DNA from: Aporhodopirellula aestuarii
GTDB lineage: Bacteria > Planctomycetota > Planctomycetia > Pirellulales > Pirellulaceae
Length of the DNA stretch: 64,000 nucleotides
Reading direction: 5' to 3'
Assembly: GCF_023701485.1 (NCBI RefSeq)
Contig: NZ_JAMQBK010000043.1
Coordinates: forward strand, 1-64,000
A program made the position numbers and the translations under genes. Shown here piece by piece: positions 43,021 to 49,457 of the stretch. Under the pieces are notes generated by a model that had not been told where the DNA came from, searched no databases, and worked only from the letters and a program-made list of their open reading frames with translations. How positions within the stretch are numbered: position 1 is the first letter of the stretch; every line of letters begins with the position of its first letter.

Positions 43021-44214
43021 TTATGCTTCGTCGAGCAAGTCGACTGCGGCGAAGGATTGCCCTTCGAGCATCGCGAGTGAGGCGCCGCCACCGGTGCTGA
43101 CATGACTGACTTGATCAGCGAAGCCGAGTTGTTCGACTGCCGCGGCGCTGTCACCACCGCCAATGATGCTGGTCGCGTCGCTGTCTGCGACGGCTTGAGC
43201 AACCGCTTTGGTTCCGGCATCCATCGGTGGCTTTTCGAACACGCCCATCGGGCCATTCCAGACGACGGTCTTGGAACCTTTGATGATGTCGCTGTATGCC
43301 TTGGCGGTTTCAGGGCCGATGTCGAGACCTTCCATGCCGTCCGGAATCTCACCGGCTTTCACAACGACTTTGTTGCAGCCAGCGATGTTTCCAAAATCAT
43401 CGCCACAGTGCGTGTCAGTTGGCAGGTGGAGTTTGCCGTCGGCTTTGGCGAGCAGTTCTTTCGCCAACTCGACTTTGTCTTTCTCGACGAGGCTGTTGCC
43501 CACCTTGCCGCCTTCGGCCAGTGAGAACGTGTACGCCATCGCACCGCCGATCAGCACCGCGTCGCAGATGCCGAGCAAGTTATTGATCACGTTGATCTTA
43601 TCGCTGACCTTGGCACCGCCGAGGATCGCGACGAAGGGGCGTGCCGGGGAGCTGATCGCGTCGGAAAGATACGCGATCTCTTTCGCGACGAGGTGACCGA
43701 CGACTCGTGGTTTGCCTTCCATGGCTTCGGGGACTGCGACCATCGAGGCGTCTTTACGGTGGCAGGTTCCGAAGGCGTCGTTGCAGTACACGTCGGCCAT
43801 CGCGGCGAGTTTGCCGGCGAATTCGGCATCGCCTTTTTTCTCGCCAGGATTGAATCGAAGGTTCTCGAGCACGAGAACTTCACCGGCGCCGAGGGCGGCG
43901 GCTTTGGCTTTGGCGTCGTCACCAACGGTATCCGAGGCGAAGTGAACGGGGCTGCCGAGCATCTCACCCAAGCGGGTGGCGGTGGGGCGGAGTGAGTATT
44001 TTTCATCGCCTTCTCCGCCGGTGGGGCGTCCGAGGTGGCTCATCAGGATGAGTTTACCGCCACGCTCGATCACGCTCTTGATGCTGGGCAGGGCCATGCG
44101 GATGCGGCGGTCGTCGGTGATCGAGTTCTGCTCATCGAGCGGGACGTTGAAATCGACCCGCATGAGGACAGTTTTGCCTTGGACGTCGGTCTGGTCGATT
44201 GTTTTCTTGGCCAT
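43021..44214 (-). CDS. pgk: Phosphoglycerate kinase
   Basis: Pgk transfers phosphate between 1,3-bisphosphoglycerate and ADP in glycolysis and gluconeogenesis. The 397-aa length is standard. Motifs are [23 protein letters not shown]-x-[40 protein letters not shown] and I-G-G-G-D-S-A-A-A. In most Pgk proteins the fourth motif reads N-D-A-F-G-x-A-H-R; the Cys is a minor change. ATG 44214 was chosen because the domain starts a few residues later. It is a single-gene unit with a clear terminator downstream. Confidence 0.97.
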
Positions 44215-44535
44215 CGGAAGGAGTGCTCCGGTTTCTTGGGAAAAAGCGAGTAAGTTCGAAATTGGATTGAAATTCATTCGAGCGGGCGGCCCAGTATCGG
44301 ACAGATTCCCGTGGTCGCGAAGGGGCCGATGGTTTTTCGATATCCTCGGCACGGTTTCCTCACGTCTTACCATCCGCGTAACCGAAACCAGAGAGTGCAT
44401 CCCTGCGGTTTGGTTGGAATGAGCCGCAACCGGTGCCGGTCTGTCGCGACTTTGGTGGAACATGTCGCGATCGTTCCGTGAAATGAACGCAAAATCAATG
44501 CAAGTTAGGGGGCGGTGCTGGTGATATCCACACCC
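44215..44535. other. Divergent intergenic region, pgk / secreted protein
   Basis: About 320 bp separates the divergent starts of pgk and the secreted hypothetical protein. It must hold the promoters of both. I see no strong operator-like repeat and could not assign -35/-10 boxes with confidence. Confidence 0.4.
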
Positions 44536-45611: not shown

Positions 45612-46568
45612 TCACTGTCCGTCTTTGGCCATCTCGGTGTGTTCGCATTTGATCCGCAGGATCTCCGCCAGATCCAATAACTGCCGGAGTGAGTCGCAGT
45701 GGGCGGTGAAGCGGAGACGTGGACGAATCGCGTCGGTCAAGGCACGTCCGCCGACAAACAACGCCACCTCATCGCTGAGTGAATCGGCCATACGGTTTTG
45801 GTCGGCGATGAATTTTTCTTCGTCTTCAATGGTCGAAACGCTGAGCCATACCAGTTTCGGTTTGCAATCGGCTGCCGCTTGTAGAAAACTCTCAAGTGGT
45901 AGGTGATTGCCCAGGTTGGTCGCTTTCCATCCAGCTTCTCGCAGCGTGAGTTCGACTAACGCCGTTGGCAACTGATAGGGATCCCCTGCGGGCGAGCCGC
46001 CGATCGCGATTGGCGCGTCAGGACAAACAGCGGGCAGCGACTGATAGAGGTCGAAAATTAGGCGAAGTGCAATCTCGCAGGCACGTCGTTCCTGATAAAC
46101 GTCGATACTCTGGCACTGCCATGCGCGGCCCAGCCCATACATCGCGTCGGCGATCAGACACTCGGCCGCCTGGCTTCGCGTCGCCCCTTCAGCAATGTAC
46201 TCGTGCAACAGGTTGCAGCAAGCGCTGTATTCACCACGGGCGAGCGCGTCGCGAAATGCCTGATTCCTAGGAGAATTTTTTCCCTCCAAGCGAACCGTTC
46301 GCGATGGCGGCATTTTCGGTAAACCCAGCGATTCCGGGCTGCAAAGGCTTCGTTGAGAGTGTGTGAGAAAACGCTGTAACGCCTCGAGTGAAATCTTTCG
46401 GTGGCCTCCCGCCGTTTTTTCGATGGAAATGGCACCGCAATCGCACCAGCGTTTCACAGACGACTCGCTAACGCTTAAAGCGCAAGCGACTTGTTTCGGC
46501 GAAAAGAGAGGTTGTTGTGCAGCCAATTTTTCAATTTTCGAGAAGTGAATGACGGCCCCGCACTCCAA
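45612..46568 (-). CDS. CarH-like regulator: MerR-type HTH plus cobalamin-domain fold, lacking both His ligands
   Basis: A MerR-type helix-turn-helix lies at 21-70: F-S-P-K-Q-V-A-C-A-L-S-V-S-E-S-S-V-K-R-W, then T-A-G-G-H-R-K-I. A four-helix segment (about 100-178) and a B12-binding-like Rossmann domain (about 186-318, with L-V-W-L-S-V-S-T-I-E-D-E and F-V-G-G-R-A-L) follow. CarH photoreceptors hold adenosylcobalamin with W-x9-E-H and E-x3-D-x-H-x2-G. Here Trp150-x9-Glu160 is kept, but the next residue is Arg161, and Asp196-x-Tyr198 replaces D-x-H. Cobalamin binding is therefore doubtful. The start is non-ATG: TTG 46568, or TTG 46526, which lies just before the HTH. It is divergent from a sigma factor. 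Confidence 0.86.
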   Translation of the reverse strand: MECGAVIHFSKIEKLAAQQPLFSPKQVACALSVSESSVKRWCDCGAISIEKTAGGHRKISLEALQRFLTHSQRSLCSPESLGLPKMPPSRTVRLEGKNSPRNQAFRDALARGEYSACCNLLHEYIAEGATRSQAAECLIADAMYGLGRAWQCQSIDVYQERRACEIALRLIFDLYQSLPAVCPDAPIAIGGSPAGDPYQLPTALVELTLREAGWKATNLGNHLPLESFLQAAADCKPKLVWLSVSTIEDEEKFIADQNRMADSLSDEVALFVGGRALTDAIRPRLRFTAHCDSLRQLLDLAEILRIKCEHTEMAKDGQ

Positions 46569-46610
46569 ACGGTCATTTTAGAGTGAAGTACCTACAAAAT
46601 GAACGTTTTT
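46567..46610. promoter_or_regulatory. Predicted promoter and operator half-sites of the CarH-like gene
   Basis: On the minus strand TTCATT (46603-46598) and TAAAAT (46580-46575) are separated by 17 bp and resemble a housekeeping promoter. The half-site TGAACGTTTT (46600-46609) covers the -35 box. A one-mismatch inverted half-site, AAACGGTCA (46567-46575), touches the -10 box. A transcript starting near 46568 would fit the downstream TTG at 46526. Autoregulation is inferred. Confidence 0.5.
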
Positions 46611-46730
46611 GGCGTTTGATTTCGTGCAGATGATCAAGTGTAACCCATCGTCAAATCGGATCGAGCCTCAGACACGAGCCAGACATAAGTCAAGAACTTT
46701 CGCTGTTTTCAGTATTTTCCTCCATTCCGC

Positions 46731-46759
46731 TTGCTTTGGTTCCCTTCCACGGATATATC
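46731..46759 (+). promoter_or_regulatory. Predicted promoter of the sigma-factor gene
   Basis: TTGCTT (46731-46736) and TATATC (46754-46759) are separated by 17 bp, a good match to a housekeeping -35/-10 pair. Transcription would begin near 46766, about 110 bp before the sigma-factor ATG, and immediately before the operator palindrome at 46769-46796. Confidence 0.55.
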
Positions 46760-46768
46760 TAGATCAGG

Positions 46769-46796
46769 TGAACGTTTTTGTTTTAGAAAACGTTCA
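46769..46796. promoter_or_regulatory. Operator palindrome upstream of the sigma factor
   Basis: TGAACGTTTT (46769-46778), an 8-bp spacer, then AAAACGTTCA (46787-46796) form a perfect 10-bp inverted repeat. The same half-site recurs exactly at 46600-46609 beside the regulator gene. Lying at about +3 to +31 of the predicted sigma promoter, it is placed where a bound dimer or tetramer would block transcription. The likely protein is the divergent MerR-type regulator (inference). Confidence 0.72.
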
Positions 46797-46875
46797 TTGG
46801 TCGAGGTGATCGCGAGCCATGGGTTCCATGTCCGCCAGAGTTTCCGTCCTAACGAGCAGCTTTAGGTAAAAAATC

Positions 46876-47952
46876 ATGAGTTCATCCACCAAGTCCAAGA
46901 CGCGGAAGGCGGCAGCGGCGCCACAGCGGTTCGAAGGGGTGACGGCCTCGTCCTTGGCGGCACGTTTACCTGCGTGGTTGCAGTCTCCCGAACTGGAGGT
47001 GGCGATCGCCGAGACTCGCGAGCATGTTCGTGATTTGACGGACGCCGATACCAGCGAGCTTCGAGCGTTGACGAAGCAACGCCTTCGTCAAGAAATCGAC
47101 TTCATTGGCAATGAACGATTTCGTTCGGCTCGCGAAGGCAAGCGGATCTTTTCGGCAGAACTTGGACTCGCCGAGCGTCAGACGGCATTGGGGATCGCAG
47201 CGATCCGCCGCAGCGGAGTCGATCTTCCGATTCACCTGGGGCGTCTTTGCGAGGCCCCGCTATTGACTCCCGAGCAAGAACGCCTGCTGTTCGAGCGAAT
47301 GAACTACTTGTTGCAACAAGCCGCGATTCATCGCAGCGTGTTGAATCCCGAGCGACCTTCGCGTCAACGCCTTGAGCTGATCGAGTTGTACGTCGCGCTG
47401 GCGGATTGGCACCGTGACCGGATCGTCGAAGCCAACCTGCGACTGGTGTTTTCGATCGTCAAGAAGTTCGTCAATGCGAACAACAGCTTTGACGAATTGT
47501 TGAGCGACGGGATCATCGCGTTAATTCGCGGCGTGGAGAAGTTTGATTTTGACCGTGGGTTCCGCTTTAGCACGTATGCGACGCAAGTCGTCCGACGTAA
47601 CGCCTATCGCACCGTCGTGACGAGGCAGCAGGAACGCCAGAAAGTAGTGGGTGGGTTGCAAGACATGGACATTGATATCGGTGAAGAAGAACGGACTTCG
47701 GCTATCAGCGAAACTCGTTGGCATGAACTGCGAAGTCGACTAAGTGTCATGCTCGGCGATTTGGATCGACGCGAAAAGTTCATCATCCGGGCGCGTTTCT
47801 CGCTGGGGTCACACCGTCGCGTGCACACCCTGCAGTCCCTTGCCGATCGCTTGGGTGTTTCGAAAGAACGTGTTCGACAACTCGAGCGTCGGGCCATGGA
47901 CAAACTCCGGGCAATGGCAGGCACGACCGATCTGGCAGAGCTCGAAAACTAA
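46876..47952 (+). CDS. Sigma-70 family RNA polymerase sigma factor
   Basis: The 358-aa protein has a basic N-terminus of about 40 residues. Region 2 lies at about 177-245: R-I-V-E-A-N-L-R-L-V-F-S-I-V-K-K-F, F-D-E-L-L-S-D-G-I-I-A-L-I-R-G-V-E-K-F-D and F-R-F-S-T-Y-A-T-Q-V-V-R-R-N. A short region 3 and region 4 (L-A-D-R-L-G-V-S-K-E-R-V-R-Q-L-E-R-R-A-M, about 325-345) follow. It is larger than ECF factors and resembles a group 2/3 sigma lacking region 1.1. An AGGT lies about 9 nt upstream of ATG 46876. The palindrome in its leader and the divergent CarH-like gene suggest repression until a signal arrives. Confidence 0.93.
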   Translation: MSSSTKSKTRKAAAAPQRFEGVTASSLAARLPAWLQSPELEVAIAETREHVRDLTDADTSELRALTKQRLRQEIDFIGNERFRSAREGKRIFSAELGLAERQTALGIAAIRRSGVDLPIHLGRLCEAPLLTPEQERLLFERMNYLLQQAAIHRSVLNPERPSRQRLELIELYVALADWHRDRIVEANLRLVFSIVKKFVNANNSFDELLSDGIIALIRGVEKFDFDRGFRFSTYATQVVRRNAYRTVVTRQQERQKVVGGLQDMDIDIGEEERTSAISETRWHELRSRLSVMLGDLDRREKFIIRARFSLGSHRRVHTLQSLADRLGVSKERVRQLERRAMDKLRAMAGTTDLAELEN

Positions 47953-48047: not shown

Positions 48048-49457
48048 TCAGGCGAGGATGCCTTCGACGATGTGGCCGTGAATGTCGGTGAGTCGCATGT
48101 CGCGGCCGCTGTATCGGTAGGTGAGCTGGGTGTGATCGAACCCGAGCAGGTGCAAAATCGTGGCATGCAAATCGTGCACGTGCATACGATCTTCCACGGC
48201 GGTTAAACCAACCTCGTCGGTGGTGCCGTGGATATGTCCCGCTTTGACGCCACCGCCTGCCATCCAAATCGTGAAACCGTCGTCATGGTGGTCACGTCCC
48301 GGTTTGGGGCCGAGTGGTAATTGAACCGTGGGCGTTCTGCCCATCTCACCACCCCAAATAACGAGGGTGTCTTCGAGCATGCCGCGTTGTTTGAGATCCG
48401 CGAGCAATGCCGCAAGCGGTCCGTCGCATTCCGACGCCAAACGGCGATGGCCGGCTTCGAGATTGGCGTGGGAATCCCATGGTTGTCCGGCACCATGATA
48501 GACCTGGACGTAGCGAACGCCCCGCTCAGCCAAGCGTCTGGCGATCAGCAATTGTCGCCCTTGTTGGTTGTCGCCGTAGGCTTCCAAAACGTGTGCCGGT
48601 TCGCGGCTGATGTCGAACGCATCGGATGCTTCGTCTTGCATGCGAAACGCGAGTTCGAGTGATTGGATGCGAGACTCGAGCGAGTGGTCGCCGGGGCGAT
48701 CGGCCAAATGCAACGCGTTGAGTTGTTGTACCAATGAGATCTGTTGTTTTTGCTGTTTCGCTAGCAGGTACTCGTTTTGAATGTTGGCGACAAGGAGGTC
48801 GGGATCGTTGTACTGCGAATCGACATACGTGCCCTGATAGATCCCGGGCAGGAATGCGCTTCGCCAATTGGCCGTTGCCGCGGTGGGCAATCCCTTCGGG
48901 CACATCGCAACGAATCCGGGAAGGCTTTGGTTTTCGGTCCCCAATCCGTACAACGCCCACGATCCGACGGCGGGGCGTGGGCGCACGATGTCGCCGCAGT
49001 TCATCATCATTAGCGCCGGTTCATGATTCGGCACATCGGTGACCATCGATCGGATGACGCAGAGGTCGTCGGCGTGTTGGGCCAGTTGGGGAAACAGTTC
49101 GCTGATCGGGATGCCTGCCTGTCCGTGCTGTTTGAACTTGAACGGCGAGGCGTGGGCGACTCCTCCGAGACGGCGGTTCTTTTCGAGTTTTTCCCCTAGC
49201 GTTTTGCCCTGCATCTTTTTCAGCATCGGCTTGGGATCGAACGTGTCGACTTGCGACGGCCCGCCGTTGGCGAAGACATGGATCACGCGTTTGGCGCGAG
49301 CCGGGTAGTGAGGTTGGCGGGGCGCGAGCGAACCGGCGCTGTCATCGGATGCTTCCTCGGCCAGCAAGCTGGAGGCGGCCAGCATGCCGAATCCCATTCC
49401 CGACTGCCGGAGCAGCGAACGTCGGGACAACGTGAGCGGTTTGTGATCAGTGAACAT
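48048..49457 (-). CDS. DUF1501 (sulfatase-fold) Tat-exported protein, cassette B
   Basis: This 469-aa paralogue of the cassette A protein begins L-T-L-S-R-R-S-L-L-R-Q-S-G-M-G-F-G-M-L, a twin-arginine signal. Key blocks are R-V-I-H-V-F-A-N-G-G-P-S-Q-V-D-T-F-D-P-K-P, W-G-G-E-M-G-R-T-P and G-R-D-H-H-D-D-G-F-T-I-W-M-A-G-G-G. The C-terminal block G-F-D-H-T-Q-L-T-Y-R-Y-S-G-R-D also matches cassette A. It lies 6 bp after its PSD1 partner in the same operon. Exported, of unknown activity. Confidence 0.93.
   Translation of the reverse strand: MFTDHKPLTLSRRSLLRQSGMGFGMLAASSLLAEEASDDSAGSLAPRQPHYPARAKRVIHVFANGGPSQVDTFDPKPMLKKMQGKTLGEKLEKNRRLGGVAHASPFKFKQHGQAGIPISELFPQLAQHADDLCVIRSMVTDVPNHEPALMMMNCGDIVRPRPAVGSWALYGLGTENQSLPGFVAMCPKGLPTAATANWRSAFLPGIYQGTYVDSQYNDPDLLVANIQNEYLLAKQQKQQISLVQQLNALHLADRPGDHSLESRIQSLELAFRMQDEASDAFDISREPAHVLEAYGDNQQGRQLLIARRLAERGVRYVQVYHGAGQPWDSHANLEAGHRRLASECDGPLAALLADLKQRGMLEDTLVIWGGEMGRTPTVQLPLGPKPGRDHHDDGFTIWMAGGGVKAGHIHGTTDEVGLTAVEDRMHVHDLHATILHLLGFDHTQLTYRYSGRDMRLTDIHGHIVEGILA

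Follow-up and report, generated by a model that had tools for sequence, protein, structure and literature searches.

The window examined here, a 64,000-nucleotide stretch of Aporhodopirellula aestuarii DNA, carries two genes facing away from each other, one for a CarH-type regulator and one for a sigma-70 family factor. The regulator open reading frame (ORF) occupies 45612-46568 on the minus strand and the sigma ORF 46876-47952 on the plus strand, with 307 base pairs (bp) between them, confirming the divergent arrangement described in an earlier interpretation made from the letters alone (the sequence-only reading). Positions are counted in the whole 64,000-nucleotide window, and residue numbers follow the 318-amino-acid count of the regulator ORF. 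Published work is cited by PubMed Central (PMC) accession. The two genes and the residues of interest are as follows:

45612..46526, minus strand: regulator gene, with a helix-turn-helix (HTH), a four-helix bundle and a Rossmann domain of the B12-binding type (Pfam, model, structure matches)
46119..46121, minus strand: codon of Trp150, the kept tryptophan that contacts the adenosyl group (translation, homologue residues)
46086..46091, minus strand: codons of Glu160, which is kept, and Arg161, a His in CarH and CtMerR (alignment)
45975..45977, minus strand: codon of Tyr198, in CarH and CtMerR the cobalt-ligating His (alignment)
46876..47952, plus strand: sigma-70 family factor of 358 amino acids with regions 2 and 4 (Pfam, best models, structures)

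The regulator ORF is open to 46568, yielding 318 amino acids, and reading from the TTG at 46526 yields 304. Because translation in many homologues starts some 14 residues further in, and TTG is codon 15 here, 46526 is the probable start, which would make the product 304 amino acids.

The regulator and its cobalamin-type pocket

Pfam recognises HTH_17, B12-binding_2 and B12-binding in the regulator, HTH_17 and B12-binding falling slightly below their curated cut-offs, and the predicted fold gives a strong structural match to light-responsive CtMerR and to CarH. The Pfam domains, predicted model and structure matches agree on the CarH/LitR class I layout of MerR-type HTH, four-helix bundle and Rossmann domain, as the sequence-only reading had supposed. 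The NCBIfam CarH model scored 32.8 bits, below its cut-off of 400.

Translation places Trp150, Glu160, Arg161 and Asp196-x-Tyr198 in the 318-residue numbering exactly as that reading had given them, so that the regulator carries W-x9-E-R and D-x-Y against the W-x9-E-H and D-x-H of CarH. In a sequence alignment to 8jbs (CtMerR), gap-free in the vicinity, Arg161 falls opposite the E-H histidine and Tyr198 opposite the histidine of D-x-H. This sequence alignment thus puts no His at either ligand site, and together with the strong structural match it supports the claim that both histidines are replaced. The third CarH histidine, which follows the Trp (His132 of TtCarH), is also absent, Gln151 taking its place, at a position that varies among accepted relatives (PMC11796333). 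By comparison, E-H and D-x-H are both present in CtMerR of Chloracidobacterium thermophilum (8jbs, 8jbt), for which adenosylcobalamin (AdoCbl) binding and a light response have been demonstrated (PMC11796333); likewise, relative to the class I CarH/LitR proteins of Thermus, Bacillus, Myxococcus and Streptomyces, both motif histidines are replaced in the regulator.

The class I motif D/E-x-H-x2-G/P-x41-S-x-T/V-x22-27-GG appears in the regulator as D-x-Y-x2-P-x41-S-x-S-x27-GG, departing from it by Tyr for His and Ser for T/V, with the spacing exact. From the published cobalamin light signature (GxxW, EH, GxxH, GxxxP; PMC11796333), GxxW and GxxxP are kept, EH has become ER and GxxH has become GxxY. 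The remaining cobalamin-pocket features tested are conserved, including those with which CtMerR contacts the adenosyl group, with Trp, Glu, G-x3-P, S-x-S, GG and the exact spacings all retained. The sequence-only reading had left a choice between a B12-independent and a retuned sensor; because these other pocket features, adenosyl contacts included, are conserved, retuning fits better and independence from B12 less well. As judged from its residues, the regulator probably still binds AdoCbl, without a histidine ligand.

Conservation and spread of the altered residues

The residue states were followed in two sets of homologues, the first comprising 943 homologues of the regulator, with 120 listed (one of them, P0002, being the window's own protein), and the second 1528 homologues found with E-H members as queries, again with 120 listed. 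Among the 120 listed close homologues of the 943, W-x9-E-R is present in every one and D-x-Y in 119, with D-x-F in one. All 120 listed distant homologues of the 1528 carry E-H, and their cobalt-ligand site holds Tyr in 113, His in 4 and another residue in 3. These counts indicate that both groups share Tyr at the cobalt-ligand site and that many Tyr lineages kept E-H, Arg at the second site being the mark of one clade. In a 112-row tree, two changes are needed to explain the E-R/E-H label (quick method, outgroup on a long branch), the simplest history comprising one gain of E-R below a branch with 97% support in the Shimodaira-Hasegawa-like approximate likelihood ratio test (SH-aLRT) and one return in two genomes.

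E-R and D-x-Y are, on this sequence comparison, conserved states of a family rather than a loss in the window gene. The suggested check of planctomycete orthologues returns a near-universal Tyr198 among listed homologues and a clade-specific Arg161, and the description of the histidines as lost proves misleading for this gene. Decay of a single gene was rejected, the altered residues being conserved in homologues.

At E <= 1e-20 a regulator profile finds matches in 136 of the 198 genomes from the class and in 34 of the 199 from the phylum, and the single regulator protein as query finds a match in 41 of 60 relatives at E <= 1e-3. The own genome has one regulator copy, and a scan of genome contigs gave a single locus. 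Relatives of the genus also carry another, more distant family of such regulators (L174-L178), in which GG is retained and no D-x-H can be seen; this family forms a separate branch in the tree, and no member was found in the own genome at E <= 1e-3.

The sigma factor, its putative promoter and operator-like repeats

Regions 2 and 4 are the only sigma regions that Pfam detects in the factor at E <= 1. The same two regions make up the region content of extracytoplasmic function (ECF) factors. The closest models and structures are of the RpoD/SigA type. The proposal of a non-ECF sigma is favoured by the length of 358 amino acids and the RpoD/SigA-type best models and opposed by the ECF-like region content, so that the assignment stays tentative.

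Linkage was assessed in 106 regulators from 100 fetched stretches and the window. A divergent sigma gene lies within 800 bp of 41 of them, distributed as 32/67 for the E-R/Tyr type, 9/31 for E-H/Tyr and 0/8 for others, and in five further E-H loci sigma lies downstream of the regulator on the same strand. In the genus (13 genomes, including the own), the regulator occurs in 11, a sigma orthologue in 12 and neither in one. The intergenic region of the window contains these features:

46731..46736, plus strand: -35-like TTGCTT of the sigma gene (CTTGC there in 11 of 13 aligned loci, by eye)
46754..46759, plus strand: -10-like TATATC of the sigma gene, 17 bp past the -35 (TATA there in 11 of 13 aligned loci, by eye)
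46769..46796, strandless: operator-like palindrome TGAACGTTTT-N8-AAAACGTTCA, a short way downstream of the -10 (sequence, aligned loci)
46598..46609, plus strand: operator-like half-site AATGAACGTTTT near the regulator start (sequence)
46567..46579, minus strand: imperfect operator-like half-site, 92% complementary to 46596-46608 (sequence)

CTTGC, TATA and TGAACGTTT stand in register, each in 11 of the 13 aligned loci, which cover the genus and two neighbours (by eye). Since the palindrome closely follows a sigma70-like -10, repression of the sigma gene is suggested, and the second site near the regulator's own start similarly suggests autoregulation.

Repeat statistics were computed over 106 upstream regions, with expectations derived from the remaining sequence of those loci. 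GAACG pairs 9 bp apart were observed 37 times against 0.94 expected, and convergent GAACG pairs with the window's spacing 6 times against 0.09. The 9-bp pair occurs in 31/106 upstream regions compared with 9/2000 random 700-bp windows, being present in 18/42 regions with a sigma neighbour, by the test used for this count, and in 13/64 without. Where sigma lies on another contig than the regulator (G019, G021, G039), the 9-bp pair is found upstream of sigma in all three; in G021, two such pairs 58 bp apart flank TTGACT-17-TATAAC, a near-consensus sigma70 promoter, and two pairs 58-59 bp apart stand upstream of sigma in L194 (G021) and L195 (G039), likewise in L086 and L158. Conversely, the genome that has sigma only (G008, the sigma gene being 71% identical), a natural loss of the regulator, shows no regulator trace in 8 kb (L192, G008:C2:1231500-1239500), and neither GAACGTT nor the 9-bp pair upstream of sigma, the stretch's only GAACGTT lying on the other side. 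The frame in the regulator's place there has an inositol-monophosphatase-type look (by eye). The link between regulator and sigma put forward by the sequence-only reading is thus recurrent, appearing as divergent pairs and as operator-like repeats common to both genes even when unlinked.

Within the own genome, no other site matches the window palindrome with <=3 mismatches (control 1 site per strand, the pattern being its own reverse complement), and a genome-wide regulon defined by it was rejected. A direct-repeat regulon was likewise set aside as chance: its 4 sites each carried 3 mismatches, and the control gave 5. ATGAACGTTTT has 7 sites, 2 of them in the window, against 1 in the control, the other 5 seeming to lie inside genes (by eye).

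CarH operators are 11-bp direct repeats (PMC9304148), in contrast to the 9-bp period of this family and the palindrome of the window. Streptomyces BldC has an HTH related to that of the regulator, which scores 26.6 bits against the BldC family cut-off of 77, and each protomer of BldC occupies one 9-bp direct repeat (PMC5859096). That period recurs in this family, as candidate binding sites in the 31 upstream regions above; BldC is without a sensor domain and the window site is a palindrome, not a tandem. LitR-LitS of Streptomyces offers a parallel in that a CarH-type regulator controls a sigma gene and the sigma drives targets (PMC12705666), but LitS is of the ECF class and LitR acts as an activator in light, while the window sigma is larger and RpoD/SigA-like and would be under repression.

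A possible light switch and its alternatives

Neighbouring genes were counted by profile search of ten families in 101 loci, raw neighbour clusters, which include antisense frames, not being used. The families found were DUF1365 (25 loci), flavin amine oxidase (25), CMAS (22), TIGR01777 (18), fasciclin (16), class II photolyase-like (11, the name resting on matches below the curated cut-off), SDR-DUF2867 (9), SOUL (7), DCC (6) and UvdE (5), with at least one of them in 64 loci and at least two in 38. For a rough sense of scale, the 9.07-Mb own genome has photolyase matches at two places, a density from which about 0.2 would be expected in the approximately 0.9 Mb fetched, compared with 11 loci. 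In 12 loci, among them L144 (L144:1037-2455), a polyketide-cyclase-like plus TIGR01777 oxidoreductase gene comes after sigma on its strand; in the own genome TIGR01777 lies on another contig. In L099 and L106, the repeat precedes the start codon of an amine-oxidase-like protein (by eye). The own-genome TIGR01777 gene and two photolyase-like places have no clear operator upstream (by eye). A photolyase-like stretch in L190 (G000:C96:68500-77500) falls in a 925-residue open frame, apparently beside or fused to a flavin adenine dinucleotide (FAD) oxidoreductase (by eye). Flanking the window pair, a phosphoglycerate kinase (43021-44463) and a DUF1501 protein (48048-49457; both Pfam) show no visible tie to the switch. 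Elsewhere, the Rhodobacter DUF1365 protein UfaO makes furan fatty acids, whose level increases on chrR deletion (PMC7380195), and in Vibrio cholerae a MerR-like gene and a photolyase gene share a predicted operon, the chrR merR double knockout failing to sense blue light (PMC5241685).

Taken together, the DNA sites and the neighbouring genes suggest that the regulator restrains the sigma factor and light-damage genes. The favoured interpretation, given roughly an even chance, is a transcription switch for light or photo-oxidative stress, built from a CarH/CtMerR-type regulator and a sigma factor. Its computed support comprises the family assignment, residue conservation, enrichment of the repeats, their loss together with the regulator, their occurrence in trans and the gene neighbourhood. 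From these we infer binding of the repeats by the regulator, repression, the AdoCbl ligand, the light signal and the sigma targets. In the uninduced state, the regulator would bind GAACGWTTT repeats both close to its own start and at the sigma promoter, covering the start region and blocking transcription; upon stimulus it would leave the DNA, allowing sigma to be made and to drive response genes, and in other planctomycetes it appears to sit directly on response genes. The pocket would be kept for an adenosyl corrinoid with cobalt bound without histidine, Tyr presumably occupying the cobalt-ligand site family-wide and Arg replacing the second His in the window clade. A broader proposal, advanced tentatively and short of an even chance, is that Planctomycetota possess, phylum-wide, a family of AdoCbl photoreceptors in which tyrosine, or no protein residue at all, takes the place of histidine as cobalt ligand. 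The sensor of the Rhodopirellula clade would then gate sigma via GAACG repeats, and a cofactor chemistry so far undescribed in this fold would drive the light-damage response.

Several observations weigh against the switch. No divergent sigma lies within 800 bp of 65/106 regulators, the exact 9-bp pair is absent from 75/106 upstream regions, and the window site is a palindrome with single half-sites instead of the tandem form. Upstream regions and neighbourhoods derive partly from close relatives, making the counts non-independent, and the neighbour counts stand without a matched random-locus control. At the window locus none of the ten neighbour families was found and no light gene adjoins the pair; DUF1365 was not found in the window's species, and no further operator match rose above chance in the own genome. 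An altered signature can, by analogy, mean no cobalamin binding, because HaAI-2E, with a cobalamin-type domain without the light signature, bound neither AdoCbl nor methylcobalamin (PMC11796333).

That precedent also speaks for a B12-independent regulator, a rather doubtful account in which the domain would only oligomerise and a partner protein or redox change would release it from DNA, as CarS does with CarA in Myxococcus or a LOV protein with class II LitR in Pseudomonas. Both histidines are replaced, and CarA (PMC9304148) and class II LitR (PMC9758184) are B12-independent relatives. Mere dimerisation leaves the conserved Trp, Glu, G-x3-P, S-x-S, GG and exact spacings unexplained, however. 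CarA presents the reverse pattern, keeping D-x-H and EH without the Trp, whereas the regulator keeps the Trp with His motif and EH changed, and class II LitR retains no more of the B12 domain than its four-helix bundle, whereas Pfam and the model give the regulator its Rossmann half. A sensor of heme or another tetrapyrrole, comparable to the heme-binding SCHIC domain of AppA and using Tyr and Arg for its new ligand, appears improbable: SCHIC has lost the Trp cap and enlarged the loop after the third strand (PMC9144470), whereas the regulator keeps Trp150, a short 243-250 loop modelled between strand 239-243 and helix 250-263, and the GG and S-x-S tail-binding motif. SCHIC, CarA and class II LitR identities were not adopted, the regulator differing in Trp and loop, in motif and in the Rossmann half, respectively.

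A corrinoid-level or redox sensor, binding cobalamin with light not the signal, would suit a pocket that is kept while residues shaping the CarH photoresponse are changed; it is nonetheless unlikely, since the neighbours are photolyase-like, UvdE and photo-oxidative genes rather than cobalamin genes, within the ten families counted. Least credible, with very low probability, is that the GAACG repeats are a promoter element read by sigma rather than an operator of the regulator. They do stand upstream of sigma genes, unlinked ones too, and GAAC resembles the -35 elements of some alternative sigmas. Against this, the 9-bp pair also precedes 13/64 regulators without a sigma neighbour, the regulator-less sigma gene of G008 has none, and a separate sigma70-like promoter lies beside the repeats.

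In the CarH-like light sensors covered by the cited literature, namely TtCarH, CtMerR, photocobilins and AerR, the cobalt ligand is a histidine. Among the open-licence PMC papers searched, no report was found on CarH with cobalamin, light or carotenoid in planctomycetes, and tyrosine as lower axial cobalamin ligand in photoreceptors returned only work on other proteins; the excerpts of a deep-sea planctomycete paper (PMC11588811) yielded nothing on a regulator of the window type. A large family keeping most of the pocket but changing that residue constitutes a natural experiment on the ligand's role. Planctomycetes would gain a defined regulator, a candidate operator and a sigma factor with which to answer light or photo-oxidative damage, and perhaps a light switch with other colours or kinetics. 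Should the regulator bind no corrinoid, it would show a B12 pocket kept for another use.
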